Source of the DNA: Bedellia somnulentella
Lineage: Eukaryota > Arthropoda > Insecta > Lepidoptera > Bedelliidae
Length of the DNA stretch: 64,000 nt
Assembly (NCBI GenBank): GCA_963576735.1
Contig: OY755175.1
Coordinates: 1,938,401 to 2,002,400, forward strand
Direction of reading: 5' to 3'
The notes beneath the pieces are model-generated. The model searched no databases, had not been told where the DNA came from, and worked only from the letters and a program-made list of their open reading frames with translations. Made by a program: the position numbers and the translations under genes. Position 1 is the stretch's first letter, and the number at the start of each line of letters is the position of its first letter. This document shows, in pieces, positions 5,415-57,860 of the stretch.

Positions 5415-5956
5415 GGAGGGAGAAACGGGTGCCCAATGATTAGTTTAATCCTCATTTGTAAAAAATACAGGTGCCCAATTTACATTTTGATCATTCTCAT
5501 TATTCATAATCATAATCACTAGGAATGGGTGCCCAATATTTATTTGGATAATTTTCATAATTATTAGGCACTGGTGCCCAATAAACATTATTTTCATTAA
5601 CCCTAGGCTTGAGCACGGGTGCCCAGAATGTGTCACTTCGTTTAGTTTGATTCCGTCTAGGATAGAAAGCGGCTGATGAATATATACCATCTTGATTGCT
5701 TTTATTATCTCTAGGATCTAACCTAGAGATAAGAGACTGTAGTCGAGCTAACAAATATAGCATATTTCGAGCATTTTCATTGCCGTTGGGATAGGCAGCA
5801 GCGGCCGCTTTAATGTTGGGATTATTTTCAAATACAATGTTTTGTTTGCTTTCATCAGCTCTGGGATATCTTGTGGGTGTGGACTCTCCATATACAGCAT
5901 CTTGATTATTTCCATTATAACCAGAGTAACTCCCAATGTTTTTTTGTCCTAAAATA

Positions 5957-6216
5957 TCCTTACTAATATTATAAATCTGAAAGTGAGTTTGTTTGTTTGT
6001 TTGTTCCACTATCACGCCGTAACTACTAAACCGATTGCTTTGAAAGTTTGCAGACGTATAGTTAGAAGTCCGGATTAAATAATAGGGTACGTTTTATCTC
6101 GGAAATAAATTATATTCCCGAGGGAAATCGTGGGAATGAAAAGTTTTCTTATAGTTGTGCTTTATATCGCAATATAACCGAATTCCACACAGGCGAAGCT
6201 GTGGGCGGAAAGCTAG
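5957..6216 (+). mobile_element. Short nonautonomous Helitron
   Basis: Begins TCCTTACTAATATTATAAA after an A and ends GGGCGGAAAGCTAG before a T, as expected for Helitron insertion between A and T. It also carries the lepidopteran-type inner motif with repeated GTTT and CGAAGCTGTGGGCGG. It interrupts the locus 1 intron next to the acceptor. Confidence 0.75.
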
Positions 6217-6835
6217 TATAGAATAATTAATAATATTATTCCCTTGCACAGATTAACATAATGCTTTTAGGATACCCATAAACACAGATATTTTTAATAA
6301 TTTTGAGCTAAAATATGTTTTTTTTTCTATTATATTGGTACATAAAATATTGCATTATAGTATTCCAATACGTTGTTCCACAGTAGCACACAATAAGGGA
6401 ATCATGTACTGTAGTGACCCGATTCATGTATTTAAAACTTATGGTTTTGTTCTGAAATGACATGTTACTTTTTATGATTATATAAATAGATAAGCAAACA
6501 TCATTATTTACAACAGAAGGAGAATTTATTAAAAAAAACATATCCTAAAATTTTGTAATAGTAACAAAAGTAACATTACAGTTAAATAAAATATGCGTTT
6601 GTCAAATCAAATATTTTCAAGATGCCAGCGTTTTCATAGCAATAAAGATCATAGTATAAAGAGCATAAAAAATTTTGAGCCATTAATTAAAATTTTAATA
6701 AATTATTTATTTCAAGAATTTAATTTTCTATTCTATGCAACAAACAGTTACTTAGTAGAATTAAAAGTTGAAATACGATAATCAATATCATACTCGTTGT
6801 GTCCCTCATTGAAAATCATAAATATACGTATAATT

Positions 6836-7053
6836 TCGGCTGTAAATCCCTAGAAGGGGTAGCCAGATTTTCAGAATTCGATATTCCTGAGCCACATTCG
6901 GAAGTTGAGGAAGATTTTAAAAATAAACCTTGCGATGGCGTCCAACCGCATTGCCCAAAAATCACTTAAGAAGCCCAGATATCCTTAGTTGCCTCCTACG
7001 AACTTCACTGGAAAGATTGGAATAGTGCTATTTTAAACTGCCATAATTCAGCA
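6836..7053 (-). mobile_element. SINE-A, diverged
   Basis: In the locus 1 intron; CTGTAAATCCCTAGAAGG to AAACTGCCATAATTCAGC. Confidence 0.7.
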
Positions 7054-7224
7054 GATACCAAATAAACATTCTGTTGTCAATATTAAATAGCAATCTCAGA
7101 TAAGAAATAGGCTATAGTTTTTCCACTAGCATGCCGCCTTAACAAATGAGTAAGGCACACGTCGGCCAGCGATATAAATAGTAATGCTAATTTTGAGTTA
7201 ATGTTACATAACAATACAATTCCT

Positions 7225-7428
7225 GTGTAGTGCCGGCTTAGAATATAACTACCCTTTCAACCCACGGGTGTCGTATGAGGGGATTAAGGGTATGGGGCTT
7301 TTTTAAGTGATTATAGGGTGATGCAGTTTGGAGACTTTGCGGTTCCAAATGTGGCTGAGGAGTTCCTAGCTCGGAAGTTCTGGCTACCCCTTTTTGGGAT
7401 ATATGGTCGTGAGTATATGTTTGTATGC
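7225..7428 (+). mobile_element. SINE-A with internal deletion
   Basis: Just downstream of the locus 1 donor. The centre from the CACC block to the CTTTATT block is lost. Confidence 0.7.
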
Positions 7429-7557
7429 AACAAATCAAATTTGTTTAACCTGATAAGTTCCCTCTTAGGTCAGCTGCCAACGCTGCTCCAATGATATAAG
7501 ATAACACTAAGAATTCCATTGTTTGTCTTACTCGTATGATGTATTTTCAAAAATTCA

Positions 7558-7738
7558 GAAGTCTTATATACTGTTTAACAATGTACAAACAATGGCAAGA
7601 GTTTACAAAAGCTATTTAGTATCAATAGTAACAATGACATACAAAAAATATATATAAATAATACGTTCTTGAATACTGACCTACAAATTGAAATATGACA
7701 AAAGGAAATGATCCACATTTGAAAAGTTAACCTTGAGG
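7558..7738 (-). promoter_or_regulatory. Locus 1 promoter: TATA and upstream block
   Basis: GTATATAAGACTTC at 7571-7558, about 40 bp before the ATG, and GTTAACCTTGAGG (plus-strand reading) at 7726-7738. Both are shared with the other loci at similar spacing. Confidence 0.6.
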
Positions 7739-7871
7739 TTTATATGAATAAGCTTATTGTTGTTAGTTATAGTAAATACAAATGGTCCAAAGAAATGTGA
7801 AACAATCATGTTTTTTTTTAAATTTTAACTTTAAAATAGGGTTGTACTCGACTGTATGAGTATACAGAGTA

Positions 7872-8064
7872 TACTAACGGTATTGGGGCTTTTTAAGGGA
7901 TTTTTGGGCGATGCAGTTGGAGACCCATCACCAACAACCTTTATTCTACCATCTTTTCCCCACTCAACTTCCAAAAGTGGCTGAGAAATTTCTAATTTCT
8001 CAGCTCTGGCTACCCCTTTTAGGGATTTATAGCCGTGAGTATATGTATGTATATGTATGTATGA
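7872..8064 (+). mobile_element. SINE-A, 5'-truncated
   Basis: Starts at CTAACGGTATTGGGGC; long TATG tail. Confidence 0.78.
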
Positions 8065-8207
8065 GTATACAATACACTAACAAGCAATATAAAAGTCCCA
8101 GTGAGATAGCTACTATTTACCAGCAACTAACTAACCTTAACCAAGAAAATTTGGGCCATTTTACAAACAAAAGCAAATAAGTACACAGTACTAATTGTTG
8201 GTTTGCC

Positions 8208-8395: not shown

Positions 8396-8399
8396 GTAT

Positions 8400-11155: not shown

Positions 11156-12837
11156 CTAGGAAGGAGAAACGGGTGCCCAATGATTACTTACATTCTCACT
11201 GGTAAAAGGTACAGGTGCCCAATGGTTAGTTTCATCATCATTTTTAAAAGGTACAGGTGCCCAATATACATTTTGATCATTATTATTATCAACAGGAACG
11301 GGTGCCCAATAAACTTTTTGATTATTTTCATTATCATTAGGCACTGGTGCCCAATAAACATTATTTTCATTAACGCTAGGCTTGGGCACGGGTGCCCAGA
11401 ATGTGTCATTTCGTTTAGTTTGATTCCGTCTAGGATAGAAAGCGGCTGATGAATATATACCATCTTGATTGCTTTTATTATCTCTAGGATCTAACCTAGA
11501 GATAAGAGACTGTAGTCCAGCTAACAAATATATAATATTTCGAGCATTTTCATTGCCGTTGGGATAGGCAGCAGCGGCCGCTTTAATGTTGCGATTATTT
11601 TCAAATCCAATGTTTTGTTTGCTTTCATCAGCTCTGGGATATCTTGTTGGTGTGGACTCTCCATATACAGCATCTTGATTATTTCCATTATAACCAGAGT
11701 AACTCCCAGCCTGTTTTTGGCCTAAAATATAAAACTAATTAATTGTATTTTTCCATTGCACACACTAACATTATGTTTAAAAATACAAATAAAATACAGA
11801 TGTACATTTGATTACGTCATACTTACTAACTTACTTATACTCACGCCCATTATTCCCATTGAGGTAGGCAGAGACTATCGATCGCCACTTAGTACGATCT
11901 TGACAAACGCTTACATTAATTATTCTTCTCATACATGCTCTTTTATTCTTCTCACTTCGGACCCCCGCCTTTATAAGCCGTTTTCTATCCGGCTATTATT
12001 CCTTTTTACCAGTTAGTTTGTTACGGCACACTACGGCAAACGTGAAATTTAGAGACCCGAATAATTTATTTAACAAATATATATATTTATACATAAATAT
12101 GTATGTATATATATAGCGATTTATAGCCGTAAGTATTTATGTATATTAAGTATATATAAATTGCTAGAAAAGGTAGCCAGAGCTTCTCAATTAAAAACTC
12201 TTCAGCCACATTTGGAATTTGATCGGAGAAGATCGCAAAAATAAAGATTGTTGATGACGGGTGTCCAACCGTATTGCCCAAAAATACATAAAAAGCCCCA
12301 ATACTCTTAGTCACTTAAAACTGGAATATCCATTGGAAGGTGAGTGCTATTCTCGCAACGTATCACCAAAGATACATACATACGTATACTCACGGCTATA
12401 AATCCCTTAGCGGGGTAGCCAGAGCTATGGAATGAGAAATTCCTCAGCCACTTTTGGAAGTGGATTGGGGAAAAGATGGTAATAATAAATGTTTTTGGTG
12501 ATGGGTCTCCAACCACATCGCCCAAAAATCACTTAAAAAGCCCCTATACCCTTAGTCGCCTCTTACGATCACCCACGGGTAGAAATGGGGTAGTGTTATT
12601 CTAAGCCGACACTACACACACCAAAGATACTTTATATCTATCATCTTGTCCCTAATCAACTTTCAAATGTAGCTGAATAGTTTCCAAGTCTAAAGCTATG
12701 GCTACCCTTTTTTGGGATTTATGGCCGTGAGTATATGTATGTATGTAAAAATACAAAGTTATTTAAGCTGATAAGTTACCTCTTAGGTCAGCTGCAATCG
12801 CTGCTCCAATGATAAAAAATATGACTAACACTTTCAT
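11156..12837 (-). CDS. Locus 2: secreted Asn-rich protein with six WAPV repeats (two exons)
   Basis: Unrecognised family and the best intact long member. Exon 1 is 12837-12780 (58 bp) and encodes a 19-residue signal peptide starting MKVLVIFF and ending AIAADLR. The donor is AG|GTAACT. Exon 2 is 11721-11156, entered through TTTTAG|GC, so the junction codon is Gly followed by Gln. The joined frame is 624 nt, 207 residues plus stop. The mature protein has an Asn/Tyr/Gly-rich front (SGYNGNNQ), a central stretch with AAAAAYPNGNENARN and LQSLISRLDPRDN, a dibasic PRRNQTKR site, then six units of [FYH]WAPV spaced about 14-15 residues with Asn/Asp-rich linkers. The intron holds SINE-A copies and an RTE fragment. 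A TATA box lies about 45 bp upstream of the ATG. Secretion follows from the signal peptide; an immune, structural or reproductive role would be a guess. Confidence 0.78.
11825..12010 (-). mobile_element. RTE-like LINE 3' end fragment
   Basis: Reverse of the motif GCGATCGATAGTCTCTGCC with an ACTTACTT tail. Lies in the locus 2 intron. Confidence 0.7.
12150..12356 (-). mobile_element. SINE-A, diverged
   Basis: Locus 2 intron; preceded at 12100-12145 by a forward tail fragment (TTTATAGCCGTAAGTATT). Confidence 0.65.
12372..12618 (-). mobile_element. SINE-A, full length
   Basis: Locus 2 intron; tail TACATACGTATACTCACGG to head AAGCCGACACTACAC. Confidence 0.82.
12619..12748 (+). mobile_element. 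SINE-A 3' half
   Basis: Abuts the previous reverse copy and ends 30 bp from the locus 2 donor. Confidence 0.75.
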
Positions 12838-12873
12838 TTTTCTTACTCGTATGATGTATTTCAAATAATTTAG

Positions 12874-13043
12874 AAGTCTTATATACTGTTTAATACTATA
12901 CAAATAATGGAAAGAGTAAAGGCTATTAATAGCAACAATGATGTACAAAAAAACAATGAAAATAATACGTTTTTATAATACTTACCTACAAATTTAATTA
13001 TAACAAAAGAAAATAATTCAAATTTGAAATGGTAACCTTGAGG
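12874..13043 (-). promoter_or_regulatory. Locus 2 promoter: TATA and upstream block
   Basis: GTATATAAGACTTC lies at about 12887-12874, and GGTAACCTTGAGG lies at 13031-13043. The intervening 140 bp still align with locus 1. Confidence 0.62.
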
Positions 13044-14414: not shown

Positions 14415-14640
14415 CATTTGAAAGTGATGTAAATACTGACGACAACCAAGCATGTAATATTGTGGCCAAAAAACTAAATGACAGAAATTACAAAGATTAC
14501 CACTGCATGCGTGTGATAAAACAGTTTAAAGTGATGTAAATACTGACGACAACCAAGCATGTATATATGTGGCCAAAAAACTAAATGACAGAAATTAAAA
14601 AGATTACCACTGCATGCGTGTGATAAAAACAGTTTGTTAA
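14415..14640 (+). repeat. 108-bp tandem duplication inside the inverted-repeat element
   Basis: AAAGTGATGTAAATACTGAC begins both units. The first keeps an open frame; the second has lost bases. Confidence 0.8.
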
Positions 14641-17262: not shown

Positions 17263-17613
17263 CTTGGCGCCCAACGTAAAAAGGAAGAAAAGTAAATACC
17301 TGAGAGAAAATAGCTGGAATCCTGCTGAGGCTGCGTCGTTTTGGGTCAGAAAAACCACCGAAGGAGAAGATTGAGAAGCTACCAGGATTGTGAGAGGGCT
17401 AAGTATCGGCCTGAAATCGTGAGTTGGTTGTTTTTTCCTATCTTTCCTCATTCCTTTAGGGTTAACTCTGTCTGGGAGGTTATGTTGTATTTGTAATTGA
17501 ATTCCTCTTTATGTCGTTAAAATCTCGTTTAGACCGCTTATGTTTATCGTTGTGTCCATGTAAACCGTGTTAATTGTCAATTTATTGTTATACCGTTCCA
17601 TATATATCGATAA

Positions 17614-17975
17614 TCTACCCACGAATAACGTGTCTTAGCTTAAAAAGAGGAAGGCGTCGTAAACGCCTTTCGATCAGATATACTAAATATCTATCCACGA
17701 ATAACGTGTCTTAGTAGCCTAAAAAGAGGAAGGCGTCGTAAACGCTTTTCGGTCAGATATAATTACTCGATATATACCTATATCGATAGTCTACCCACGA
17801 ATAACGTGTCTTAGTAGCTTAAAAAGAGGAAGGCGTCTTAAATGCCTTTCGGTAGATATAATTACTCGATATATACCTATATCGATAGTCTACCCACAAA
17901 TAACGTGTCTTAGTAGCTTAAAAAGAGGGAGGCGTCTTAAACGCCTTTCGGTCAGATAGAAATACTCGATATCTA
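17614..17975 (+). repeat. Four tandem repeats of about 77-100 bp within the BEL/Pao element
   Basis: Each unit has CTACCCACGAATAACG, a GAGGAAGGCGTC segment with its near-palindromic AACGCCTTTCGG, then GATATA-rich sequence. They start near 17614, 17691, 17791 and 17890. Confidence 0.8.
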
Positions 17976-22042: not shown

Positions 22043-22225
22043 TATGACTAAGAAAAGATGTGTGTTGCTGAGTTTCTTACGGGTTCTTCTCGCAACAATA
22101 CACCTTCCGAATCCGAAGTAGAGTCAGTAGAGTAAGATTTAACTTATACGTAAGTTTGTGACGTTCAAAAAATAGAGAACAATTCTTTTTATTTTGAAAT
22201 AAATATTTTTTATCTTTTAGTCTAA

Positions 22226-22763
22226 GATCCCGCTATAAGACGACCTTCACCGGGCTGGTTAATGGATGAAAGATATTTTTTATTAAATAAAATATGTCAA
22301 TAAATATATTGCGAATGGGTTGTCTGAAAAATTTCAGTCCAGAGTATGATTAATTAATAATTAAAAAATCATATTTTTTTTTCAATCACACTGGCTTGGT
22401 TAATGAACAAATTCTATTCCAATCGAAAATATGAAACCTATAGAATATAAAAACGTTAGGTTGTCTATTTATTTCCCGTCGCATTTCTTGGGTTGGCAGG
22501 TATAAACAGGTAAATCGATACTAGTAACTTGCACCGGTCCGGTTAATGAATGAAACTAAAATAAAAATAAAGATAATTTTATTACGAACACGGTGGTATA
22601 GGGTTGTCTGCAGAAAATCAGTCCTGAATTGCGGTTGTCGAATTTTAAAAAGTAAAATATTGCTGCGAGTGAGTACGTGCGACAGCGAGGTCCCAGCAAA
22701 CTATCCCATGCGGTAGAAGAGGACACAGCATTGCAGCTGTGTATAGTTTGTGGGTTGAATGAA
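22226..22763 (+). repeat. Left 538-bp terminal inverted repeat
   Basis: Contains successive GGTTAATG-AA motifs and ends in TGGGTTGAATGAA. Confidence 0.85.
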
Positions 22764-22932
22764 CAAGAGAGCGCGCATGCTATTTGTCGGTGAAAACGAA
22801 AAAGATAGCGATAGACTAGTAAATGCTACGCGTCATTTTGGAGTAGCTTAATATTAAAATATAGAAGAAAGTTTTGTTAAATGTTTCTTTTTATAAATGA
22901 ATTACATATGTGTGTATATATTTTATATAATG

Positions 22933-23311
22933 CTACCGTGATAGCCCAGTGGGTAGAACACTTGGTTATCGTGCAAGCGACTAGTGTTCGAATCCTGGGT
23001 CGGGCCTACACCAATTTGTCTTTTCTAAAGACATATGTGTGGTTAATTTATCATGGTTGTTAACGGTGAGGGAAAACATCGTGAGGAAACCCACATGGCT
23101 GAGTTGTACTTAGTCATGTGACAGTGTATTCGTACAAAACGGCGATAGGCCTGCCCCCTATCACGTGAGTAAACGGTCCATGCAAAACGTGGGTACTCTG
23201 AACACCAGGTGACAAAGTCACGTGATGTTCAGAAGTATTAGTACCTCTGCCAACCCCTTCGGGGATATTCGGCGTGAACGTTTATGTTATGTTATGTTTA
23301 TGTTATGTTAT
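22933..23311 (+). mobile_element. SINE-B, full length
   Basis: tRNA-like head (GTGATAGCCCAGTGGGTAG as A box, GTTCGAATCC as B box), a central ACACCAATTTGTCTTTTC, then CGATAGGCCTGCCCCCTATC, CCAACCCCTTCGGGGA and a GTTAT-type tail. Inserted inside the long-TIR element. Confidence 0.85.
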
Positions 23312-23462
23312 ATTTTATGTGATATTAAAGTATATACATCTTTAGTAAATAAAAAGGTAAATAAAAGTTATCAGCAGACGAAAAAAAAACAAAAATAAAA
23401 AAAAAAAATCTTTTTATTGTAACAAAATACAAATAGGTACTAAAGTTTTAAAAATTTTCAAA

Positions 23463-24203
23463 TTATTCAGGATCCGAGTCATCAGACATGTAATTGTGAT
23501 CTTCAATATCAGAAAATTCTTTATCATCGTTTTCTGTTTCAGTCGTTTCGACAATATCTTCTATTCTTAAAGGCGTATGATCCCCAATTAATCCTACTGG
23601 TTTTAAATATCCATCGAAGAACCAACCGCAGTTTTCACGTTGAAGTTTTACGCATACTGGATCCGCTGCATTAAGCCACATGGAATTTACGAAAATAGTT
23701 CTTAAAAATTTCTGAATCAATGATATCCAGCATGGTGGTATAGAGTTGGAGTCGAAGCCTTTTATTTTTTTTAAAAACTGCTCGCTGTCTTCTTTGTCAG
23801 AATATTTCTTCAGAAAAATGCGATATATCGCATCATTCACTTTGATGCAGTTCTTGACGCCATACATATTGGCAGTAAATTCTTGAACGGTGTTCATTTT
23901 TTCGTTAATGAAAATGTCAGCTTCATCTGTTAGTGACGCAAAAACTGTTTGATATTTTTCATTACCCGAAAGCAGCTTAAAAGGTTTTACTTTTCCTTTA
24001 TTGTGAAATGCAGCCGTGTAATCGCAACCTGTGAACGCATGGAAGGCGGGAAGACTTTGGCACAATTTGAGTCCTAACTTCAATGCTAGATCGGTGCAAT
24101 TAATGCAATCAACAGGTTGATTACTAGTCTTTTTTGTTGCTGAAGTGGCAAGCCAAATTTCTGATTCTGAAATTTTGTGCATATTTCCTAACAAAATAAT
24201 CAA
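23463..24203 (-). CDS. XPG/FEN-like nuclease-type ORF of the long-TIR element
   Basis: 246 residues. HAFTGCDYTAAFHNKGKVKP near residue 55 matches the GCDY-x-GKxK signature of XPG/FEN-type nucleases and of a widespread family of transposon-associated proteins with AFTGCDT-type motifs. The N-terminal acidic residues of a full nuclease are absent, so this is a C-terminal part. The rest (CWISLIQKFLRT, CGWFFDGYLKP) fits that family, and the C-terminus is strongly acidic (DDSDPE). No transposase DDE domain is present. Academ-type DNA transposons are known to carry an XPG-like domain, hence the inferred affiliation. The frame is open, but the element lacks other machinery. Confidence 0.55.
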   Translation of the reverse strand: MIILLGNMHKISESEIWLATSATKKTSNQPVDCINCTDLALKLGLKLCQSLPAFHAFTGCDYTAAFHNKGKVKPFKLLSGNEKYQTVFASLTDEADIFINEKMNTVQEFTANMYGVKNCIKVNDAIYRIFLKKYSDKEDSEQFLKKIKGFDSNSIPPCWISLIQKFLRTIFVNSMWLNAADPVCVKLQRENCGWFFDGYLKPVGLIGDHTPLRIEDIVETTETENDDKEFSDIEDHNYMSDDSDPE

Positions 24204-24226
24204 AACATCATTTTACAATTACATCA

Positions 24227-24764
24227 TTCATTCAACCCACAAACTATACACAGCTGCAATGCTGTGTCCTCTTCTATCGCATGGGATAGTTTGCTGGGAC
24301 CTCGCTGTCGCACGTACTCACTCGCAGCAATATTTTACTTTTTAAAATTCGACAACCGCAATTCAGGACTGATTTTCTGCAGACAACCCTATACCACCGT
24401 GTTCGTAATAAAATTATCTTTATTTTTAATTTAGTTTAATTCATTAACCGGATCGGTGCAAGTTACTAGTATCGATTTACCTGTGTATACCTGCCAACCC
24501 AAGAGTTGTGACGGGAAATAAATAGACAACCTAACGTTTATATATTCTATAGGTTTCATATTTTCGATTGGAATAGAATTTGTTCATTAACCAAGCCAGT
24601 GTGATTGAAAAAAAAATATGATTTTTTAATTATTAATTAATCATACTCTGGACTGAAATTTTTCAGACAACCCATTCGCAATATATTTATTGACATATTT
24701 TATTTATTAGAAAATATCTTTCATCCATTAACCAGCCCGGTGAAGGTCGTCTTATAGCGGGATC
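24227..24764 (-). repeat. Right 538-bp terminal inverted repeat
   Basis: Mirror of the left arm, beginning TTCATTCAACCCACAAAC and ending CTTATAGCGGGATC. Confidence 0.85.
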
Positions 24765-25128
24765 CTATACTATTATCTTTTATCTTCATCTTTTACCCCA
24801 TCGTGAAGGTTTTAGGTGAGATTAATTTTGCATTGCGTTCATCAATAAGTAATGGTCGTTTCATAAAATATAATAATATGCGATACTGCATAATTTTTAT
24901 TTTCATATTTTTTCATATTACCCCTATTTTCACACACATTTGGTGGGGACCAAAGGTGTCGAGCCAACTAAATATCTTGATCTGAACATTTGTTAATTGT
25001 AAAGCATTAGAACATTGTGAGAAACACACATAGCATACGTTTTTTAAACTCTCGCGGTTTGTAGACATTATATATAACAATAATCGGGATTAAGCAAGGA
25101 ATATTTTTAAATCACTTACGTCAGTATA

Positions 25129-26041: not shown

Positions 26042-26564
26042 TTACTCGTGTTTACTCCAATCTAACAAGGAGAGGTGTCCAAATTTTATGCGAAACATAT
26101 TGCGAGGATATCCATTATTGCTATTGTAACTGTTAGTGGATTCTTGACCTGGAATATAAAATCACTTAAAATGTTTCGCTGGCACACAAAAACTTTATAG
26201 ATTTACGCCCGATTTCTGAATTGAGTATTCAAGCTGAGAACAACTTAAGTATCGTTTTGTCTCATTCAGTTGTTAAGATTTCAATGCGACAGTACAATAC
26301 TTAAGTTGTTCTCAGCTGGAATACTCAATTCAGAATTCGGGCGTTATTTAAAACTCTTGTTCGAAACTTATCCTATATTTAACTTTCAAAGATGGCTAAG
26401 GTATTTTAATGCTGAAGCCCTGGTTATCCTTAGTTAGCTTGTAAAAAAATATATTTTTTAATTATTGTTAGTATTATTTATTTTGTAGAAACTAAATAGT
26501 AACCTCTTATATCAGCTACAAATGCTGCTCCTATGATAAACAATATCAGTAAAAGGATCTTCAT
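26042..26564 (-). CDS. Locus A: short Asn-rich secreted peptide (two exons)
   Basis: Exon 1 is 26564-26504 (61 bp), a 20-residue signal peptide starting MKILLLIL and ending AFVADIR. Exon 2 is 26148-26042, entered through TTCCAG|GT, giving Gly-Gln-Glu-Ser-Thr at the join. The total is 168 nt, 55 residues plus stop. The mature part (about 36 residues) begins with an Asn/Ser/Tyr segment (NSYNSNNGYPRN) and ends with LLDWSKHE. It has no cysteines and no YWxP repeat. YPRN and the start after the splice resemble locus 2, so it is a shortened paralog. The 355-bp intron contains a 138-bp hairpin MITE. A TATA box is at 26619-26634 and an AATAAA signal (minus strand) at 25744-25749, which predicts a transcript of about 0.85 kb before splicing. 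Function unknown. Confidence 0.75.
26206..26343. mobile_element. 138-bp hairpin MITE in locus A intron
   Basis: Terminal inverted repeats of about 50 bp (CGCCCGATTTCTGAATTGAG at the tip) flanked by TTA on both sides. The 3-bp duplication suggests the PIF/Harbinger group. It lies 57 bp upstream of exon 2 in the transcript. Confidence 0.7.
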
Positions 26565-26618: not shown

Positions 26619-26793
26619 CGAAGTCTTATATACTATTTTCAATGTACTTATGATATTTAAAAAAATTTTTTTATTAAGTATCAATGGTAACCATTGTATA
26701 CAAAAATATAATGTAAATATTATAGTATTACAATACTGCTTTATAAATTCATACAAAAAGAGAATTGAACTATTTAGACAGTTAACCTCGAGG
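26619..26793 (-). promoter_or_regulatory. Locus A promoter: TATA and upstream block
   Basis: TATATAAGACTTC lies at about 26634-26619, and GTTAACCTCGAGG at 26781-26793. Between them the region is AT-rich and shared with B and C. Confidence 0.62.
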
Positions 26794-28784: not shown

Positions 28785-30402
28785 TAATAATAATAATAAT
28801 AATAAAGCCATTTATTTCTCACTTAAATTTTTTACATTTCAACTTAAAAATACAAATTATTATTAATTATGCACTTAAAATATAACATTCATTACATAAC
28901 AATAAATTTTTACCATCAGATGTAATTAATATAAATTAAAATTTTAAAATCAAAATTATAAATTAAAATTATAAATTAAAATTAAAATTATTTACAAATA
29001 TAATATATACAGCATTACATCATTTGTTTAAAAATATTTATCATTTAACGTTTAACTGCATTTAATTTATTTTTAGTGTTATAATTTATTCTTATTTATA
29101 CATTTTATTCTTTTATGTGAGACACCCATTTTTGGGCGTAGGCCTCCTCCAACCCCTTCCATTTGCCTCTCTGCTTGGCTGTGCGGGTCCACGTAGCGCC
29201 AGCCAACTGCACGATGTCGTCCGCCCAGCGCCGCCGTGGTCTGCCGCGTGGCCTCGTCGCTTCTCTGGGATACCAGTGAAGGAGTCTCTCACTCCACCGG
29301 TTGTCAGTTGTTCTCGTGACGTGACCTGCCCATCTCCACTTGAGTCTGCATGCTAGCTCTACGGCGTCTGTCACCTTGGTCATATTTCTGAGTGATGTGT
29401 TTCGTACCCTGTGTTTTAGCTTGATGTTTAGCATGCTCCGTTCAGCTGCTCTCTGAAACACATTAAGTTTTTGAACGATATTTTTAGTAAGGGTCCAAGT
29501 TTGACACCCGTAGAGTAGGGTGGGAAGAACAATCGTGTCCATCGCTTTCTTTTTAAGATGTGTCGGAAGCTTGGACTTGAATACATCCTTGAGACTCCAG
29601 TATTTGCCCCACGCTTTTTTTATTCTTCGTTCTACTTCTCTAGATGTTTGATCAGCGAATGTAATATTTTGTCCTAAGTAAATGTACTCTTCTACGTAAT
29701 CTATGGTGTGTTCTGCTATTTTGATAGGGATTTTTTGATAGTTTGTCATGGCAAACGTTTTTTGCTTGTTCATCTGAAGCCCACAGTTTTTACTCTGTTG
29801 GTCAAGCGTTTCTATCATGTGGACTAGGGTCTCGTGGCTTTCTGCAATGAGAACAATATCGTCAGCGAATCTAAGATTGTTAAGGACTTCTCCATTAATA
29901 TTCACACCGATTTCATCCCAACTTAGTTGTCTAAAAATTTGTTCTAATAATGCTGTGAACAGGTTGGGCGAAACCGGGTCGCCTTGTTTTACTCCTCGTT
30001 GTATGTTGAATGGTTCTCCTTTTCTCTCTAGTTTAACGATTCCCTTACTATTTTTGTAGATTTCTTTTAGTATATCAATGTAGGCTGTCTCTACGCCTTG
30101 CTCTACCAAAGCCTGCCATAGGGGTTCGTGCTTAATAGAGTCAAAAGCTTTGCAATAATCTATAAAGGCAATATAGAGCTTTTTATTATACTCTGTGCAT
30201 TTTTCAATTAGTTGTGTGATTGTGAATATATGGTCTGTGGTAGAGTAGTTCTTTCGGAATCCAGCTTGTTCTCTAGGTTGGTTACTGTCCAGCATTTTAG
30301 ATATCCTTTTTAAAAGTAGAGTTGCGAATACTTTGTAAATTGTTTGTTGTAAGCTTATTGGCCTGTAGTTGTCTAGGCTCATAGGATCTCCTTTTTTGTA
30401 GA
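28785..30402 (-). mobile_element. 5'-truncated RTE-like LINE
   Basis: Its 3' end is an ATT microsatellite at 28785-28803. The 3' UTR is about 300 bp. Coding sequence runs from 30402 down to the stop at 29105. It sits at the AGTAG point of a SINE-A. Confidence 0.75.
29105..30402 (-). CDS. RTE-clade-like reverse transcriptase, N-terminally truncated
   Basis: About 430 codons of LINE sequence; an open frame of 528 codons continues further upstream into unrelated repeat sequence. RT motifs in order: NYRPISLQQTIYKVFATLLL, AGFRKNYSTTDH, IAFIDYCKAFDSI (first catalytic Asp), RGVKQGDPVSPNLFTALLEQ, LRFADDIVLIAES (paired Asp), MNKQKT, then LLYGCQTWTL and the C-terminal GHVTRTTDNRWSERLLHW and RPRGRPRRRWADD, ending AYAQKWVSH. 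The whole C-terminus is intact, while the endonuclease and first RT segments are missing. RTE affiliation is by motif style, especially FADDIVLIAES and GRPRRRWADD. No frame damage inside, so it is relatively recent. Confidence 0.85.
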
Positions 30403-30660: not shown

Positions 30661-30681
30661 GTATATCATTTAAGATTCTTA

Positions 30682-34215: not shown

Positions 34216-34388
34216 CGAAGTCTTATATACTATTTTCAATGTACTTATGATATTTAAAAAAAAAAATATTAAGTATCAATGGTAACCATTGTATACAAAA
34301 ATATAATGTAAATATTATAGTATTACAATACTGCTTTATAAATTCATACAAAAAGAGAATTGAACTATTTAGACAGTTAACCTCGAGG
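34216..34388 (-). promoter_or_regulatory. Locus B promoter: TATA and upstream block
   Basis: TATATAAGACTTC is at about 34232-34216 and GTTAACCTCGAGG at about 34376-34388, nearly identical to A. Confidence 0.62.
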
Positions 34389-38767: not shown

Positions 38768-38937
38768 CTCGAGGTTAACTTTCTGAATAGTTTCATTCTA
38801 TTTTTGTATCGATTATAAGGCAGTATTGTAATAGTATATTTACTTTATATTTTTGTGTACAATGGTTATCATTGATACTTAATAAATAGTTTTTTCCCAA
38901 GTATCATAAGTACATTAAAAACAGTATATAAGACTTC
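38768..38937 (+). promoter_or_regulatory. Locus C promoter: upstream block and TATA
   Basis: CCTCGAGGTTAAC at 38768-38780 and CAGTATATAAGACTTC at 38922-38937, in mirror order to A and B because the copy is inverted. Confidence 0.62.
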
Positions 38938-38992: not shown

Positions 38993-39924
38993 ATGAAGAT
39001 CCTTTTACTGATATTGTTTATCATAGGAGCAGCATTTGTAGCTGATATAAGAGGTTACTATTTAGTTTCTACAAAATAAATAATACTAACATACATACAT
39101 TCATATTCTCACGCCGTTAGTTCCCATTGGGGTAGGCAGAGACTATCGATCGCCACTTTGTACGATCCTGGCAAACCTCTCTAGCTTCATTCACATCCAT
39201 CAGTCTTTTCATACATGCTCTTTTATTCTTCGTACTACGGACACCTGCCTTTTTGAGTAAATTTTCTATTTGATCCAAATGTGTCCTCCGAGGTCGTCCT
39301 CTACTAACATTACCTTCCACATTGGCTCTATAGATCTCTTTTACCAATTTACTGTCATCCATCCTCTCTATATGCCCAAATCATCTCAACATTCCTTTCT
39401 CTATCTTTCTTACAATATCATCTTTCACACCACATCTTTCACGAATCACGTCATTCCTTACACGATCACATAACCTCACATTACAAACTTTTCTGAGGGA
39501 CCTCATTTCTATACTAACAATAATTAAAAAATATTTTTTTTACAAGCTAACTAAGGATCACCAGGGCTTAAACATTAAATTACCTTAGCCATCTTTGAAA
39601 GTTAAATATAGGATAAGTTTCGAACAAGAGTTTTAAATAACGCCCGAGTTCTGAATTGAGTATTCCAGCTGAGAACAACTTAAGTATCGTTCTGTCGCAT
39701 TGAAATCTTAACAACTGGATAAGACAAAACGATACTTAAGTCGATCTCAGCTTAAATACTCAATTCAGAAATCGGGCGTAAATCTATTAAGTTTTTGTGT
39801 GCCAGCGAAACATTTTAAGTGATTTTATATTCCAGGTCAAGAATCCACTAACAGTTACAATAGCGATAATGGATATCATCGTCATATATGGATAGTCTTG
39901 TTAGATTGGAGTAAACACAAGTAA
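38993..39924 (+). CDS. Locus C: short Asn-rich secreted peptide, inverted copy
   Basis: Exon 1 is 38993-39053 with the same signal peptide as A and B. Exon 2 is 39836-39924, for 150 nt, 49 residues plus stop. Relative to A an 18-bp in-frame loss has replaced the middle of the mature peptide (YPRNMFRIKF becomes YHRHIWIV), while the ends (GQESTNSYNS and LLDWSKHK) are kept. The orientation is opposite to A and B. The intron is enlarged by a 419-bp RTE fragment with a 9-bp target duplication, placed 38 bp behind the donor. The TATA box is at 38922-38937 and AATAAA at 40231-40236. The frame survives despite the deletion, which argues for retained function but does not prove it. Confidence 0.7.
39092..39510 (-). 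mobile_element. RTE-like LINE 3' fragment in locus C intron
   Basis: A 9-bp duplication ATACTAACA flanks it (39083-39091 and 39511-39519). The intron of A shows the empty site. Coding frame 39362-39117 ends VSAYPNGN. Confidence 0.85.
39641..39779. mobile_element. Hairpin MITE in locus C intron
   Basis: Inverted copy of the A/B element with TAA flanks. It shares the homologous intron position. Confidence 0.7.
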
Positions 39925-45975: not shown

Positions 45976-46147
45976 CCACAAGGTTAACTTTTTAAATGAT
46001 TTTATCTGTTAAATTTGTTGTTTTAAACTATTGTTTTTATATTTAATAAAGTATGTTATAAAATGCTATTGTTGCCATTGAAAAAAAAAACCTTTTTGCT
46101 ATTTATAATTATTACCAATTCATTGTGAAGTAGTATTTAAGACTTCC
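45976..46147 (+). promoter_or_regulatory. Locus D promoter: upstream block and TATA-like box
   Basis: CCACAAGGTTAAC at 45976-45988, and the weaker TATA variant AGTATTTAAGACTTCC at about 46132-46147. The spacing is the same as in the other subfamilies although the rest of the promoter has diverged. Confidence 0.58.
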
Positions 46148-46207: not shown

Positions 46208-49018
46208 ATGAAGGTCTTTATATTATTATCGTTTATCGTTGGAGTCGCGTTTGTAGCTGACATAACAGGTTACTATATACTTTAACTAACCTCTATTTAT
46301 TATGACAAATATTGAGTTGTTCATGCTGTTTTTAAAATTAAGATGATTACGTGCTTCGGAGGGCACATTAAACCATCGGTCCCGGCTACTATTAAGGTAG
46401 TTAGTCGTAGTTAGTCGTAGTTAGTCTGCCAACCTGCAATTGGCCAGCGTGGTGGACTATGGCCAAATCCATACTAATATTATAAATGGGAAAGTGAGTT
46501 TGTTTGTTTGTTTGTTCCGCTTTCACGCCGTAAATACTGAACCGATTGCTTTGAAATTTTTCAGACGTGTAGTTAGAAGTCTAAATTAAATAATAGGGTA
46601 CTTTTTATCCCGGAAAAATATGTTCCCATGGGAAATCAAAAATATTGTTTGCTTACTAAATGCATTGGAGATGGCGCTGTGCATCGTTTAAAACAACGTA
46701 AAATATTGTAAACTAATATAAAAATCAAAATTTAGAAGCTTAATGGTACGGTAATGGATCCCCGAAAATAAGGAACTCCCAAAGGGATGATGTACTATTT
46801 TTTTATCGTATACAATTTTTTTTACATCTACTTATATTGCAAACGAATATTAACATGTAAATTTAGAAGCTAAATGAAACGACGACGATTCCTTGAAACT
46901 AAGGAATCCGCAAGAGTTCTCATAGGAACATCAAAAAACCTTAACTCATATATGGCTCAAAATATTGCAGCGATTATTTTTATCATCGATGGAATTCACA
47001 TCAGACACTTTGTTAATGTTCATTTTGGAAAGATGAAGGGGTTTCATCAATTTAAATGACAAATTTGTTTATCAATAGTAAGACTAATATGAAATAAAGC
47101 GTAATAAAAATTTGACACCGCCCCGGTAACATCTCCGTGGCGTAGCGGTATAACTAACTACTATGAATATTTAATTAGAACTATTATGAATCAATCGTCC
47201 CGGGTTCATATCTCAGGTAATTCAAGCTTTTTGTAAAAAAATGTTTGCTAGCTTAAAATAACACTATATATAATAATAACAAGCACCATCCCTTCAATTT
47301 AGCGATTATTTTGGAAGGAGATCCACCACTAATCATCCCTATATTGCCGAGCAATCGCTGCAAGCTCTCCCACTATCACCAACGGTCAGTGTAGGGGGCA
47401 GCACCGGGCCGTCGCCGCAGCGCCAAACTACTATCCGTATCTGTACTTACTAAAGATATTCTCATTTCTGAACATAAAAACTTGGTATATTTGTTTCATG
47501 ATTCTTATGAACAATTAAAAAGGAATTTTTGGAACTCAACCCCTAACGGGTTGATATAGCAAATGAAAGTTAATATAGAGTTTTTTTACATTTTATAATA
47601 AAACTTGGTGCGATTGAATTTATGAAATCCATCTATCAATCATTCATGAATATATGCTAACAACCATAAATTCCATAAAAGGGTAGCCATAGCTTTGGAG
47701 ATTCTTCATCCAATTTTGGAAATATATTGATAAAAGATAGGTTAATAAAGGTTGTTAGTGATGGGTCACAAACTGCATCGCCCAACAATCACTTAAAAAG
47801 CCTCAATGTCCTTTATGTCATTTACAATGCCCGCGGGATTATAAATATAAAAAACAGAAGTTGAGATAGTGTTTCGGTATTTTGGTATTATGTAAACTGG
47901 ATGCAAAAAATGAAGTCCACGCGGACGAAGTCGCGGGGCAAAAAGCTAGTTTTATAATAAAACTTGGTGCGATTGAATTTATGAAATCCATCTATCAATC
48001 ATTCATGAATATATGCTAACAACCATAAATTCCATAAAAGGGTAGCCATAGCTTTGGAGATTCTTCATCCAATTTTGGAAATATATTGATAAAAGATAGG
48101 TTAATAAAGGTTGTTAGTGATGGGTCACAAACTGCATCGCCCAACAATCACTTAAAAAGCCTCAATGTCCTTTATGTCATTTACAATGCCCGCGGGATTA
48201 TAAATATAAAAAACAGAAGTTGAGATAGTGTTTCGGTATTTTGGTATTATGTAAACTGGATGCAAAAAATGAAGTCCACGCGGACGAAGTCGCGGGGCAA
48301 AAAGCTAGTACCCTATATAGGGTAGGTTCGAGCCCCTTGGCGGGGACTATATATGTATATATATGGGCTGTGAGGATTGAGGATGCTACCTCTCTGTTCT
48401 ACGCTAATCCATCCTCCATTGATTGATAACGGCAGCACAGTACCGGTCGTTGTAGAAATCTTTGGCTATATCTAGCAGTCCATGGCTTTTAGCTGATGAT
48501 GATGACGATGCTATCTTAACCCTTATACTTTGTTATTCGAAATATCTTAGATACTTTAGTATTTATATCATAAAATATGGAAAAACAAAAAAGGAAATTT
48601 GACTGCCTATTGGTTTACAGCCAAATCATCCATCAATCACTTAGCGTACTACCCTATACAACACCCTCGAAACGATTTTAGTATAATGATTTATGATGAA
48701 TATTTTAATATTTCAGGACAAAATTCCACTTCTACTTCATCCAACTCAACCAATACTCGAAATTCTACACACTTTCTGCCTCCTTCTAGAAATAAAACAA
48801 ATTCAACTCCTGTATATTGGAGACCTCCTCGCCCATCTAAGAATAACAAGAACTCGACTCATATATATTGGAAACCTCCTCCTCACCAAAACGGGACAAA
48901 TGGAAGTAATCCATATTGGAATCCTACGGGTAGCAGAAAAAGCCGTAGTGCAGGATACTGGATACCAATTTCTTCTTTCGTATTCTTCGAAAATCCACAC
49001 AATTCCACCGATTCATAA
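46208..49018 (+). CDS. Locus D: sequon-rich YWxP-repeat secreted protein, exon 1 with exon 2a
   Basis: Exon 1 is 46208-46268 (61 bp), a signal peptide starting MKVFILLS and ending AFVADIT. Exon 2a is 48717-49018, entered through TTTCAG|GA to give Gly-Gln-Asn-Ser-Thr. The total is 363 nt, 120 residues plus stop. The mature region is crowded with N-x-S/T sequons (NST, NKT, NGT), then four units YWRPP, YWKPP, YWNPT and YWIPI at about 15-17 residue spacing, with a basic RKSR site before the last. The tail SFVFFENPHNSTDS is specific to 2a and 2b. AATAAA overlaps the stop codon (49017-49022). The intron carries a Helitron that the E paralog lacks. Two more exon-2 copies follow, each with an acceptor of the same phase. 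Function unknown; probably secreted and glycosylated. Confidence 0.75.
46468..48308 (+). mobile_element. 1.84-kb nonautonomous Helitron with duplicated 3' end in locus D intron
   Basis: Starts TCCATACTAATATTATAAA after A (46467) and ends GCGGGGCAAAAAGCTAG before T. A first complete 3' end is at 47949 and a second at 48308. The last 359 bp occur twice in tandem (47591-47949 and 47950-48308), each including a degenerate SINE-A. A tRNA-like segment (GTGGCGTAGCGGT and GGTTCATATCTC) lies at 47132-47210. The right arm of the inverted duplication (about 56763-56790) shows the unoccupied site, GGCCAAA joined directly to TTACCCTATA. No Rep/helicase ORF. Confidence 0.78.
47591..48308 (+). repeat. Two tandem 359-bp copies of a Helitron 3' end
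   Basis: The copies start TTTTATAATAAAACTTGG and end in CTAG; they look near-identical over their full length, so the duplication is recent. Confidence 0.85.
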
Positions 49019-50243
49019 TAAAAACAATAACAAATATTCACCGCCCCTTTCTATTATTATCACAATACTCAAAATTTATACAAAATTAATTACAATACAA
49101 AAATCCGCCATCAGACCTCAAAGGTCAAGTCAAGAGTTCTTTTTATCTATCAATCACTCACAGAGTCAATCACAGAATATCATATATAGAATATGCTAAA
49201 GCCAATTAAATATGGAAAATCAAAAAAGGAAATTTGACTACCTATTGGTTTACAGCCATATCATCCATCAATCACTCAGCGTACTACCCTATACAACACC
49301 CTCGAAACGATTTTAGTATAATAATTTATGATGAATATTTTAATATTTCAGGACAAAATTCCACTTCTACTTCATCCAACTCAACCAATACTGGAAATTC
49401 TACACATTTTCTGCCTCCTTCTAGAAATAAAACAAATTCAACTCCTGTATATTGGAGACCTCCTCGCCCATCTAAGAATAACAAGAACTCGACTCATATA
49501 TATTGGAAACCTCCTCCTCACCAAAACGGGACAAATGGAAGTAATCCATATTGGAATCCTACGGGTAGCAGAAAAAGCCGTAGTGCAGGATACTGGATAC
49601 CAATTTCTTCTTTCGTATTCTTCGAAAATCCACACAATTCCACCGATTCATAATAAAAACAATAACAAATATTCACCGCCCCTTTCTATTATTATCACAA
49701 TACTCAAAATTTATACAAAATTAATTACAATACAAAAATCCGCCATCAGACCTCAAAGGTCAAGTCAAGAGTTCTTTTTATCTATCAATCACTCACAGAG
49801 TCAATCACAGAATATCATATATAGAATATGCTAAAGCCAATTAAATATGGGAAATCAAAAAAGGAAATTTGACTACCTATTGGTTTACAGCCATATCATC
49901 CATCAATCACTCAGCGTACTACCCTATACAACACCCTCGAAACGATTTTAGTATAATAATTTATGATGAATATTTTAATATTTCAGGACAAAATTCCACT
50001 TCTACTTCATCCAACTCAACCAATACTGGAAATTCTACACACTTTCTGCCTCCTTCTAGAAATAAAACAAATTCAACTCCTGTATATTGGAGACCTCCTC
50101 GCCCATCTAAGAATAACAAGAACTCGACTCATATATATTGAAAACCTCCTCCTCACCAAAACGGGACAAACAGAAGTAATCCATATTGGAATCCTACGGG
50201 TAGCAGAAGAAACCGTAGTGCAGAATACTGGAAACCAATTTCA
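48575..50243 (+). repeat. Tandem array of 635-bp units carrying exon 2
   Basis: Units start near 48575, 49210 and 49845. The first two are near-identical over full length; the third leaves the shared sequence after CCAATTTC at 50243 and continues with the ancestral 3' end. Confidence 0.88.
49352..49653 (+). CDS. Locus D alternative terminal exon 2b
   Basis: Almost base-for-base copy of exon 2a in the second 635-bp tandem unit, with the same TTTCAG|GA acceptor and reading frame, the same SFVFFENPHNSTDS tail and an AATAAA overlapping the stop (about 49652-49657). No exon 1 or TATA box precedes it inside the repeat unit, so it can be expressed only by splicing from the exon 1 at 46208. The main coding difference from 2a is NTGNST for NTRNST. 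A mutually exclusive terminal exon is the natural reading; an unused duplicate is the alternative. Confidence 0.6.
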
Positions 50244-50255
50244 CTAACTTACTGA
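49987..50255 (+). pseudogene. Locus D exon 2c, premature stop in the second YW repeat
   Basis: Third exon-2 copy with the same phase-1 acceptor. Its 3' end (PISLTY then stop at 50253-50255) is the ancestral one shared with locus E, not the tail of 2a/2b. The Trp codon of HIYWKPPP is TGA at 50139-50141, so a product would stop after one YWRPP unit. Sequence beyond the stop remains in frame and well conserved, suggesting recent inactivation or use as a short isoform. Confidence 0.65.
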
Positions 50256-51375: not shown

Positions 51376-51527
51376 CTTGGCACCATAGCTCAGTGGCAAA
51401 GCGATCGTGGTGTATATTCGGATGTCGTGGGTTCGATTCCCGCTCGTGTCAATAATGGAGTTTCAAGCTCTAGAGCTCTGGCTAACCCTTTTTGGGATTT
51501 ATTGCCGTAAGTATATATCCGTATGTA
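51376..51527 (+). mobile_element. tRNA-headed SINE with SINE-A tail
   Basis: A tRNA-like start (CATAGCTCAGTGGCAAAGC as A box, GGGTTCGATTCCC as B box) joined after about 75 bp to CTCTGGCTAACCCTTTTTGG and the GCCGTAAGTATAT tail. Confidence 0.7.
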
Positions 51528-52402: not shown

Positions 52403-52424
52403 GGCTAGGCTTCTTTTGGAGAAT

Positions 52425-55685: not shown

Positions 55686-55936
55686 ACATACATACATACA
55701 TATACTCACGTCTGTAAATCCCTAGAAGGGGTAGCCAGAGCTAAGAAATTAAAAATTACTCAGCCACTTTTGGAAAATTGAGTGGGGTAAAGATGGTTAA
55801 ATAAAGGTTGTTGGTGATGGGTCTCCAACCGCATCGCCCAAAAATCCCTTAAAAGCCCCAATACCGTAAGTCGCCTCTTACGTACACCCACCGCAAGAAA
55901 TGGGGTAGTGCTATTCTAAGCCGACACTACACAGCA
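55686..55936 (-). mobile_element. SINE-A, full length
   Basis: Mirror of 50464-50706. Confidence 0.85.
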
Positions 55937-56009
55937 TATTTCATTCAAATTGCTACAAAAGTCTTTCAATGTAGAGTACTCTGTATATTGAAACAAAATA
56001 TACTATATA

Positions 56010-56095
56010 ACTTACTTATACTCACGCCCGTTGTTCCCATTAAGGTAGGCAGAGACTATCAATCGCCACTTTGTACGATGCAGGCAAATCTTTCT
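56010..56095 (-). mobile_element. RTE-like LINE 3' tip, right arm
   Basis: ACTTACTTATACTCACGCCC to TGTACGATGCAGGC. Confidence 0.65.
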
Positions 56096-56143
56096 TGCAT
56101 ACTATATTAAAATTATTAATATATAGAAAAACGCTTGCTAGCT

Positions 56144-57018
56144 TCAGTAAGTTAGTGAAATTGGTTTCCAGTGTTCTGCACTACGGCTTCTTCTGCTACC
56201 CGTAGAATTCCAATATGGATTACTTCCGTTTGTCCCGTTTTGGTGAGGAGGAGGTTTCCAATATATATGAGTCGAGTTCGTCTTTTTCTTAGATGGGCGA
56301 GGAGGTCTCCAATACACATGAGTTGAATGTGTTTTATTTCTAGAAGGAGGCAGAGAGTGTGTAGAATTTCCAGTATTGGTTGAGTTGGATGAAGTAAAAG
56401 TAGAATTTTGTCCTGAAATATTAAAATATTCATCATGAATCATTATACTAAAATCGTTTCGAGGGTGTTGTACAGGGAAACGCTGAGCGATTGATAGATG
56501 ATTTAGCTGTAAACCAATAGTTAGTCAAATTTCTTTTTTTGGTTTTCCATATTTTCTGATATAACTAAAGTAATTTCTAATAACCAAGTACAAGGATTAA
56601 GATAGCATCATCATCATCATCAGCTAATAGTCGTCCACTCCTAGATAATGCCAAAGATCTCCACAACAACCGGTCCTGTGCTGCCCTCATCCATCGATGG
56701 ATGATGAATTAACGAAGCACAGAAAGATAGCATCCTCCACCAAAGGGCTTGAGTCTACCCTATATAGGGTAATTTGGCCATAGTCCACCTAGCTGGCCAA
56801 TTGCGGGTTGGCAGATTTACGACTACTACCGTGATAGTAGCCGGGAACGACGGCTTAATGTGACCTCCGAAGCACGTAATCATCTTAATTTTAAAGACAG
56901 CATGAACAACTCAATATTTGTTATAATAAATAGAGGTTAGTTAAAGAATATAGTAACCTGTTATGTCAGCTACAAACGCGACTCCAACGATAAACGATAA
57001 TAATATAAGGACCTTCAT
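56144..57018 (-). CDS. Locus E: sequon-rich YWxP-repeat secreted protein (two exons)
   Basis: Inverted partner of locus D. Exon 1 is 57018-56958, a signal peptide starting MKVLILLS and ending AFVADIT. Exon 2 is 56412-56144, for 330 nt, 109 residues plus stop. The mature protein starts GQNSTFTSS, has repeated NST sequons, then YWRPP, YWKPP, YWNST and HWKPI units with basic SRRSR between the last two, and ends ISLTY. The short (545 bp) intron has no Helitron and gives the empty-site sequence for the insertion in D. The TATA-like box is GTATTTAAG-like (AGTATTTAAGACTTCC) at 57079-57091. This is the cleanest single-copy representative of the D/E subfamily. Confidence 0.78.
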
Positions 57019-57078
57019 TGTTCTTCTTACTTGTGTCTTCTTAAGTTTTTTCTTATAATGTCTTTTCGAACCAGTCGG

Positions 57079-57247
57079 AAGTCTTAAATACTATTTCACG
57101 ATGAATTGATAATAATTATAAATAGCAAAAGGTTTTGTTTTTCAATGGCAACAATAGCATTTTATAACATACTTTATTAAATATAAAGACAATGGATTTA
57201 AAACAACAAATTTAACAGATAAAACCTTTTAAAAAGTTAACCTTGTG
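57079..57247 (-). promoter_or_regulatory. Locus E promoter: TATA-like box and upstream block
   Basis: AGTATTTAAGACTTCC (minus strand) lies around 57091-57079 and GTTAACCTTGTGG at 57235-57247; closest to D. Confidence 0.58.
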
Positions 57248-57399
57248 GTATTGTTAAATTTATATGGTAACTTAATAGAGGACCGCGAGTATATCAAATT
57301 ATTAATTTTAACATTATCAGACTACCCCTTCTAGGGATATAGATCGTTATATGTATGTTTGGACCGTGAGTCAACAGAAAATGTCACTTATTTTACCCA

Positions 57400-57748
57400 A
57401 GCGTTTGGCGTCACTGACAGAACTTCAGAAGTCCAAACTCAAGGTTTGCCAGTGAGCAGTGCAGCGCAGTATTTTCAGTGTTTGCAGGACCCATCGAGGA
57501 TGGAACAACACACTGAGCTCCTTCACTGGCATCGCTGATGTGGGTGCACAAACCACCAAGCTAAAGTGGAACTGGGCCAGTCACATTTGTCGTATGCACC
57601 CAGACAGATGGGCGAAGATCGCTACAAACTGGGTGCTACAAGACGGTTACCGGCGTAAGGGCAGGCCGCGGTTAAGATGGCGGGATGATATCGACTAGTT
57701 TTTGCCGGGTTGGCCGGAGATGTCACAGAGCCGGGACGTCTGGACTCG
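57400..57748 (+). pseudogene. RTE-like LINE C-terminal fragment, right arm
   Basis: As in the left arm but running on to YRRKGRPRLRWRDDID, then a stop, and cut at 57748 where exon-2 sequence begins. Confidence 0.72.
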
Positions 57749-57860
57749 GGAGGTCTCCAATACACATGAGTTGAATGTGTTTTATTTCTAGAAGGAGGCA
57801 GAGAGTGTGTAGAATTTTGAGTATTGGTTGAGTTGGATGAAGTAGAAGTGGAATTTTGTC
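57749..57860 (-). pseudogene. Orphan 5' fragment of a D/E-type exon 2
   Basis: Starts at the same TTTCAG|GA acceptor (57860) with GQNSTSTSS and runs to VYWRPP, where it is cut and joined to an RTE-like LINE fragment. Upstream intron-like sequence continues to about 57972. No exon 1 belongs to it. It marks a breakpoint of the inverted duplication and shows that at least one more exon-2 copy once existed on this arm. Confidence 0.7.

Follow-up and report, generated by a model that had tools for sequence, protein, structure and literature searches.

What kind of gene family carries the same tiny signal-peptide exon seven times within one short stretch of the genome of the moth Bedellia somnulentella, and what might its products do? 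The stretch analyzed here (the window) is 64 kb long, C6:1938401-2002400 of a 549-Mb genome, and positions below are those of the window unless C6 is named. The initial annotation had described seven loci and one exon fragment of an unrecognized secreted-peptide family, and seven signal exons together with an exon-2 fragment at 57860 on the minus strand were indeed recovered. We are highly confident of the gene family and its two-exon structure, and it is well supported that the cluster is a single-locus family of secreted chains, apparently restricted to its lineage. The complete statement, in which this lineage-restricted cluster of single origin would also supply adhesive or coating material, comes near an even chance without reaching it.

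Structure of the Cluster

The signal exons were found by protein and DNA searches. They are 58 or 61 nt long (one base more than 19 or 20 codons) and end in phase 1, with the intron after residue 19 in the type designated W and after residue 20 in types N and Y. Each is followed on the same strand by an exon 2, and a phase-1 join would restore Gly-Gln; splicing at all loci is predicted from sequence, and the W1 join was counted as if made like that of W2. On the minus strand lie W1 (exon 1 at 7462-7519, 58 nt if so joined; exon 2 at 5500-5948, with an open frame that stops early), W2 (12780-12837; 11156-11721), N1 (26504-26564; 26042-26148), N2 (34101-34161; 33639-33745) and Y2 (56958-57018; 56144-56412), while N3 (38993-39053; 39836-39924) and Y1 (46208-46268; first exon 2 at 48717-49018) are on the plus strand. 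Precursors measure 168 and 207 residues for W, 49-55 for N (55 in N1 and N2, 49 in N3) and 109-120 for Y (120 in Y1, 109 in Y2). The tiny signal exon and the phase-1 intron rebuilding Gly-Gln, both claimed earlier, could be read at all seven loci, with a canonical GT donor at six and GG at W1. Exon 2 is present in ten copies, namely two W, three N and five Y; the Y copies comprise three in tandem at Y1, one at Y2 and the orphan fragment (57752-57860, minus strand, low end approximate), which retains an acceptor. The duplicated blocks are segments with promoter, exon 1, intron and exon 2 together.

Each locus has a compact TATA promoter. A 15-base element, AGTATWTAAGACTTC, occurs exactly seven times in the window, once per signal exon, starting 50-76 bases upstream of the ATG. 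It lies at 7558-7572 in W1 (as AGTATATAAGACTTC), 12873-12887 in W2, 26620-26634 in N1, 34217-34231 in N2 and 57078-57092 in Y2, all on the minus strand, and at 38923-38937 in N3 and 46132-46146 in Y1 on the plus strand; both Y loci carry it as AGTATTTAAGACTTC. The common promoter layout noted initially was thereby borne out. Further upstream, six of the seven loci carry AGGTTAAC between -214 and -227, and W2 instead has AGGTTACC at -201.

Restriction to One Locus

Across the whole genome AGTATWTAAGACTTC occurs eight times, seven of these being the cluster loci, compared with five occurrences of a reversed control pattern; the eighth site, on C19, has no ATG within the next 150 bases. When 264 kb were scanned on both strands for a TATA box, an ATG, a hydrophobic core and a phase-1 GT donor, only the seven loci were returned. 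As the family itself served as the template for these criteria, this result demonstrates specificity and is no independent discovery.

Genome searches with exon 2 gave a consistent picture. All six rows for W2 and all three for N1 fell inside the cluster, as did eight of the nine for Y2, the ninth being a row at E 0.8 on C18. The N1 promoter plus exon 1, the one promoter/exon-1 query used, returned three rows, all of them N loci; the W promoter and exon 1 were covered through the 15-base pattern. Within 100 kb on each side there was no further copy or promoter element, and protein rows were weak (best E 0.17). The many dispersed copies expected of a transposon were seen neither with the three exon-2 queries nor with the N1 promoter/exon-1 query. 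A transposon origin was rejected, the exon-2 types being confined to the cluster except for the E 0.8 row and whole gene segments having been duplicated.

Searches for Relatives

With respect to relatives in other organisms, W2 and Y2 were compared with 5.8 billion proteins, with a reverse transcriptase from a retrotransposon in the window (29105-30712) as the control and the N type not among the queries. No relative was found at E 10 for either chain, the candidates that shared words with them numbering 174 and 2, respectively. The search depends on words shared with the query, and short two-exon genes may be without gene models. The control had 1,341 relatives; among the 120 listed, the nearest named ones were Plutella xylostella proteins at 60-62% identity, and the other named rows were moth and butterfly proteins at 47-54%, apart from a single cockroach protein at 46%, with proteins of Plutella, Helicoverpa and Euphydryas included. 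Because the control retrieved lepidopteran proteins, the lack of relatives for W2 and Y2 carries weight. Searches against Pfam gave nothing above cut-off for W2, Y2 or N1. Taken together with the protein search, which the initial annotation had proposed, these results agree with its description of the family as unrecognized.

Sub-threshold Pfam matches of Y2 were to New_glue (PF21827; 16.4 bits against a cut-off of 31, E 0.0079, over the first 50 residues) and Extensin_2 (14.1 bits against a cut-off of 20.8); W2 and N1 did not match New_glue at E 1. Literature searches by motif (including YWAPV) and by topic, judged mainly by titles, found no description of such a peptide family. Capture of a viral gene was also considered and rejected: viral contigs scanned with exon 2 of W2 and Y2 gave eight stretches with the Y2 pattern, none of them a relative.

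Probable Kinship of the Three Types

The mature exons had been described at first as three very different types. Our comparisons do not sustain that view, and the types are probably one family linked through the long W exon. The mature chains of W2 and Y2 align locally with a score of 111, compared with 35 +/- 7 for shuffled chains, none of 2000 shuffles reaching it. Because both chains contain Trp-x-Pro units, the shuffling was repeated with these kept. The score was then reached in 6 of 2000 shuffles when the units were spaced at random and in 33 of 2000 when their true spacing was preserved, so the motif explains part of the signal but not all of it. In addition, three Y exons came up when W2 exon 2 was searched against the genome (E 9.9e-4, 0.0024 and 0.115).

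The N type resembles W at a different place. An ungapped alignment of N1 and W2 anchored at the start of exon 2 scored 28 over 12 residues against -7.3 (0/10,000), and of the first 40 exon-2 bases of N1, 25 are identical to W2 and 26 to W1 (0/5000 each). The last 20 bases of the intron match at 14-15 positions among N1, W2 and Y2 (0 to 5 of 5000), in part reflecting the common shape of acceptors; N1 and W1 match there at only 10 of 20 (449/5000), a repeat intruding at that point. As DNA, the exon-2 starts of Y-N and Y-W are weakly alike, at 16 of 40 bases each (360 and 125 of 5000). The W chain combines Trp-x-Pro repeats with a stretch, SYxxxNG, at its N-terminus; N matches only its start and Y only its repeats. 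Since the starts of Y are not significantly like those of N and W as protein and only weakly so as DNA, W stands as the bridge between N and Y. Our reading is that a W-like gene was ancestral and that N and Y may be shortened forms of it; the alternative, that W arose as a fusion, is not the one we favor.

Damaged and Altered Copies

Not all copies are intact. At W1, a GT donor 12 nt downstream of the GG (exon end 7450, CAG/GTTAAA) would preserve phase, and a rule-based scan requiring GT picks this shifted donor. Exon 2 of W1 suffers an early frame break and has three Trp-x-Pro units versus six in W2, and a dispersed repeat starts at most about 10 bases upstream of it. This repeat, which abuts the acceptor, spans about 5950-6233 (~270 bp) and has 40 further rows across many contigs. 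In our view W1 is damaged, although it may still be alive.

At Y1, three exon-2 copies with a period of 635 bp stand behind one signal exon, the second at 49352-49653 and the third, which has an internal TGA, at 49987-50255, all on the plus strand. Copies in this tandem (48570-50139) could be alternative last exons. Upstream of the array, 47591-48309 is a perfect tandem duplication of 359 bp (two copies, 100% match), which points either to an event in the very recent past or to an artefact of assembly. The orphan Y fragment is cut off by a repeat at 57317-57747 that is also present upstream of Y1. In N3 the intron has been enlarged by repeat sequence to 782 nt, compared with 355 in N1 and N2, and exon 2 is shorter than in N1 and N2 by 18 nt (6 codons) with the frame kept.

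Rates of Change

A signal exon that is steady beside a faster-changing mature exon was part of the first description, and this pattern was observed. Exon 1 is unchanged between N1 and N3 (0/61), whereas their promoter stretch has 13/149 changes (p 0.012); between Y1 and Y2 there are 1/61 changes in exon 1 and 27/269 in exon 2 (p 0.039); no p value in these rate comparisons was corrected for multiple tests. The ratio of nonsynonymous to synonymous rates (dN/dS) for exon 1 between types was 0.28 for N1-Y2 (p 0.058), 0.28 for N1-W2 (p 0.053) and 0.55 for W2-Y2 (p 0.486), and it was 1.66 for W1-W2. For exon 2 the ratio was 2.93 for W1-W2, 1.07, 1.02 and 2.11 for the N pairs, and 0.86, 0.69 and 1.67 for Y1, Y1b and Y1c (the three tandem copies) against Y2, the comparisons of Y1 and Y1b including a few codons at the tail whose homology is improbable. 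In the four of these seven pairs that were tested against 1, there was no significant departure (W1-W2 p 0.090, N2-N3 0.681, N1-N3 1.0, Y1-Y2 0.629). Exon-2 ratios of about 0.7-2.9 fit either diversification or relaxed constraint.

Proposed Function

The mature chains of W1, W2, Y1, Y2 and N1-N3 have no Cys. In W2, whose exon 2 is intact, six aromatic-Trp-Ala-Pro units stand 14-15 residues apart (Trp spacing 15, 15, 15, 14, 14), and in Y1 and Y2 the spacing is 17, 16, 14; the tandem period of the repeats is 45 bp, a multiple of three. Sequons are in excess in the Y chains, with 8 in Y2, also intact, versus a shuffle mean of 2.8 (4/5000) and 9 in Y1 versus 3.8 (6/5000), and show no excess in W2 (4 versus 2.9, 1580/5000). 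The repeat region of W2 has a charge of -7 and an isoelectric point (pI) of 4.2, its N-terminal half is at +5, the Y chains are cationic at +9 to +11 (Y2 +11, pI 11.1), and the N chains are near neutral at 0 to +2.

From these features we infer a possible course of events. An ancestral two-exon gene, nearest to W2 in plan, would have given rise to both direct and inverted copies over a span of about 50 kb, with a TATA promoter, the signal exon, the phase-1 intron and one exon for the remaining secreted chain kept in every copy. A secretory gland would make the precursors in bulk, and the signal would be removed. The Cys-free and probably unfolded chains may then serve as an adhesive or coating, in which aromatic-Trp units every 14-17 residues would act as cohesive spots, separated by hydrophilic spacers that may be partly N-glycosylated. 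A gland-secreted glue or coat, such as a silk coat or a similar secretion, is thus put forward tentatively as the most likely function, and it would work in the manner of Drosophila Sgs glue. A more specific version, in which W and Y, opposite in charge, would be partners in a single bioadhesive specific to the lineage and would condense together after secretion, and N would act in end-capping or signalling, is suggested by the acidic W repeats and the cationic, sequon-rich Y chains, which have the same aromatic-Trp-x-Pro unit at similar spacing; we consider this version very doubtful.

Several observations weigh against a family of single origin with an adhesive or coating role. The reverse genome search with Y2 found the W exons only weakly (E 0.06, 0.16 and 0.86), and exon-2 starts compared as protein were not significantly alike for Y-N (800/10,000) or Y-W (1061/10,000). 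The anchored length of 12 residues for W and N was picked after the alignment had been seen, and free local alignments were not significant (shuffles reaching the score: W2-N1 463/2000, W2-N3 441, Y2-N1 264), so the W-N link is weaker than the W-Y link. None of the four tested pairs has significant amino-acid constraint on exon 2. Pfam gave sub-threshold matches to Y2 alone, and AlphaFold, run on W2 exon 2 as a single sequence, gave a mean predicted local distance difference test score of 43, in which disorder and scarcity of data cannot be separated. The N type, with no repeat and 28-34 exon-2 residues after the Gly, is a poor fit to a bulk adhesive, and the glue or coat role itself is a prediction from sequence.

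Alternative Explanations

Another possibility is that the cluster is in decay, few of its genes still work and open frames persist through recent duplication. The lost W1 donor and the broken Y1c and orphan fragment agree with this, and identity in exon 2 does not exceed that of the neighboring intron, either in the three N pairs (94, 87 and 88% versus 98, 96 and 94%) or in Y1-Y2 (90% for both); between N1 and N3 exon 2 has even changed more than the flanks (12/89 versus 33/486, p 0.0498). Against decay, the promoter element and exon 1 persist at all seven loci, exon 1 of N1 and N3 is unchanged beside a varying promoter stretch, the shortening of N3 is in frame, and exon 2 of Y1c and Y2 is 95% identical versus 79% for the adjoining intron. 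Conservation is highest in exon 2 of W, which is gapless over 145 codons with 93% DNA and 88% amino-acid identity; immediately downstream, identity is 77% and gaps are numerous, and the promoter stretch stands at 85%. The adjoining intron end, at 49%, reflects the W1 repeat and is an unfair yardstick. We judge decay of the cluster to be quite improbable.

Proline-rich immune peptides would account for other features of the family. The cationic Y chains, with their PRP and KPPP segments, would act on microbes after the signal exon had directed them to the haemolymph. The charge and pI of Y2, its segments YWRPPRP and YWKPPP, and the basic cleavage-like sites RRSR in Y2 and TKR in W2 are in keeping with this, and a steady signal exon with a faster mature exon fits a defence family. 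The W2 repeats, however, are acidic and the N chains near neutral, W2, Y2 and N1 have no match to a Pfam antimicrobial family at E 1, and no kappaB-like site (two consensus forms, rare by chance anyway) occurs within 400 bp upstream at any of the seven loci. The immune reading depends on the Y type alone, and we consider it unlikely though worth keeping in mind. Genes for reproductive secretions, for example seminal-fluid or egg-coat peptides, are often restricted to a lineage, vary in copy number and have a dN/dS close to 1 or higher. The cluster appears to have all three traits, but no clue to a tissue was found in promoter or sequence, and we see this role as improbable.

Neighboring Features

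A tRNA-Tyr (GTA) gene at 51378-51452, between Y1 and Y2, is the sole Rfam match in the window. An inverted repeat at 22218-24772, with arms of 546 bp at 98%, surrounds an open frame (23463-24212) without a Pfam match and looks like a recent mobile element. Two tandem arrays, at 17613-17972 and 14421-14635, repeat approximately every 79-99 bp and every 107 bp. Outside the window, 5 of the 32 flanking open frames of at least 110 residues were scanned with Pfam, with no matches at E 0.1; two flank frames without a Pfam match, C6:2014956-2015372 and C6:1913006-1913338, resemble host coding exons.

Significance and Comparison with Known Systems

The cluster offers a natural case of a secreted family apparently born at one locus, with intermediates and damaged copies still present. 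It shows how a promoter and signal exon can persist even as the mature portion is shortened or remade, and the long form, W2, links two shortened forms that look unrelated. Should the product prove to be an adhesive or coat, its Trp-x-Pro repeat would represent a building block of a new kind. Short two-exon genes may escape automatic annotation, and similar clusters may be common but unseen.

Among known systems, the insect proline-rich antimicrobial peptides include apidaecin and lebocin. Pro/Arg-rich segments like theirs are also found in the Y type; in contrast, W2, Y2 and N1 match no antimicrobial family in Pfam, and W and N are not cationic and proline-rich. The lepidopteran fibroin heavy chain (H-Fib) has, like the Bedellia cluster, a very short signal-coding first exon followed by a single second exon. 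In the published account of Yponomeuta cagnagella H-Fib, that second exon is large, the protein having 5,763 residues with Gly/Ala-rich repeats (PMC9684489), whereas the Bedellia precursors have 49-207 residues and Trp-x-Pro repeats or none.

Closer parallels are offered by the glue genes of Drosophila. The new glue (ng) genes are described in the literature on Drosophila glue genes as intronless and with threonine runs (PMC6352337, PMC10835880). Small chains with a signal peptide, close to rearranging loci, are common to them and the moth cluster, and Y2 is a weak match; in contrast, two exons are predicted here and the PF21827 score is below the Pfam cut-off. According to the same reports, the larval salivary glue genes Sgs1, Sgs3, Sgs7 and Sgs8 have their signal peptide split at residue 10 by a phase-1 intron, and the Sgs proteins have a C-terminal IRXC[L/V]C motif (PMC6352337, PMC10835880). 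Common to the Sgs genes and the moth cluster are two coding exons, an intron of phase 1 that falls within the signal region, repeats carried by some of the chains, a small cluster with inversions and duplications, and rapid change. Of the intron, only the phase agrees, its position being residue 10 in Sgs and after 19 or 20 here, and the moth mature chains, being without Cys, do not carry the motif. Two defining Sgs features therefore fail, but in its layout the moth cluster resembles the Sgs glue genes.

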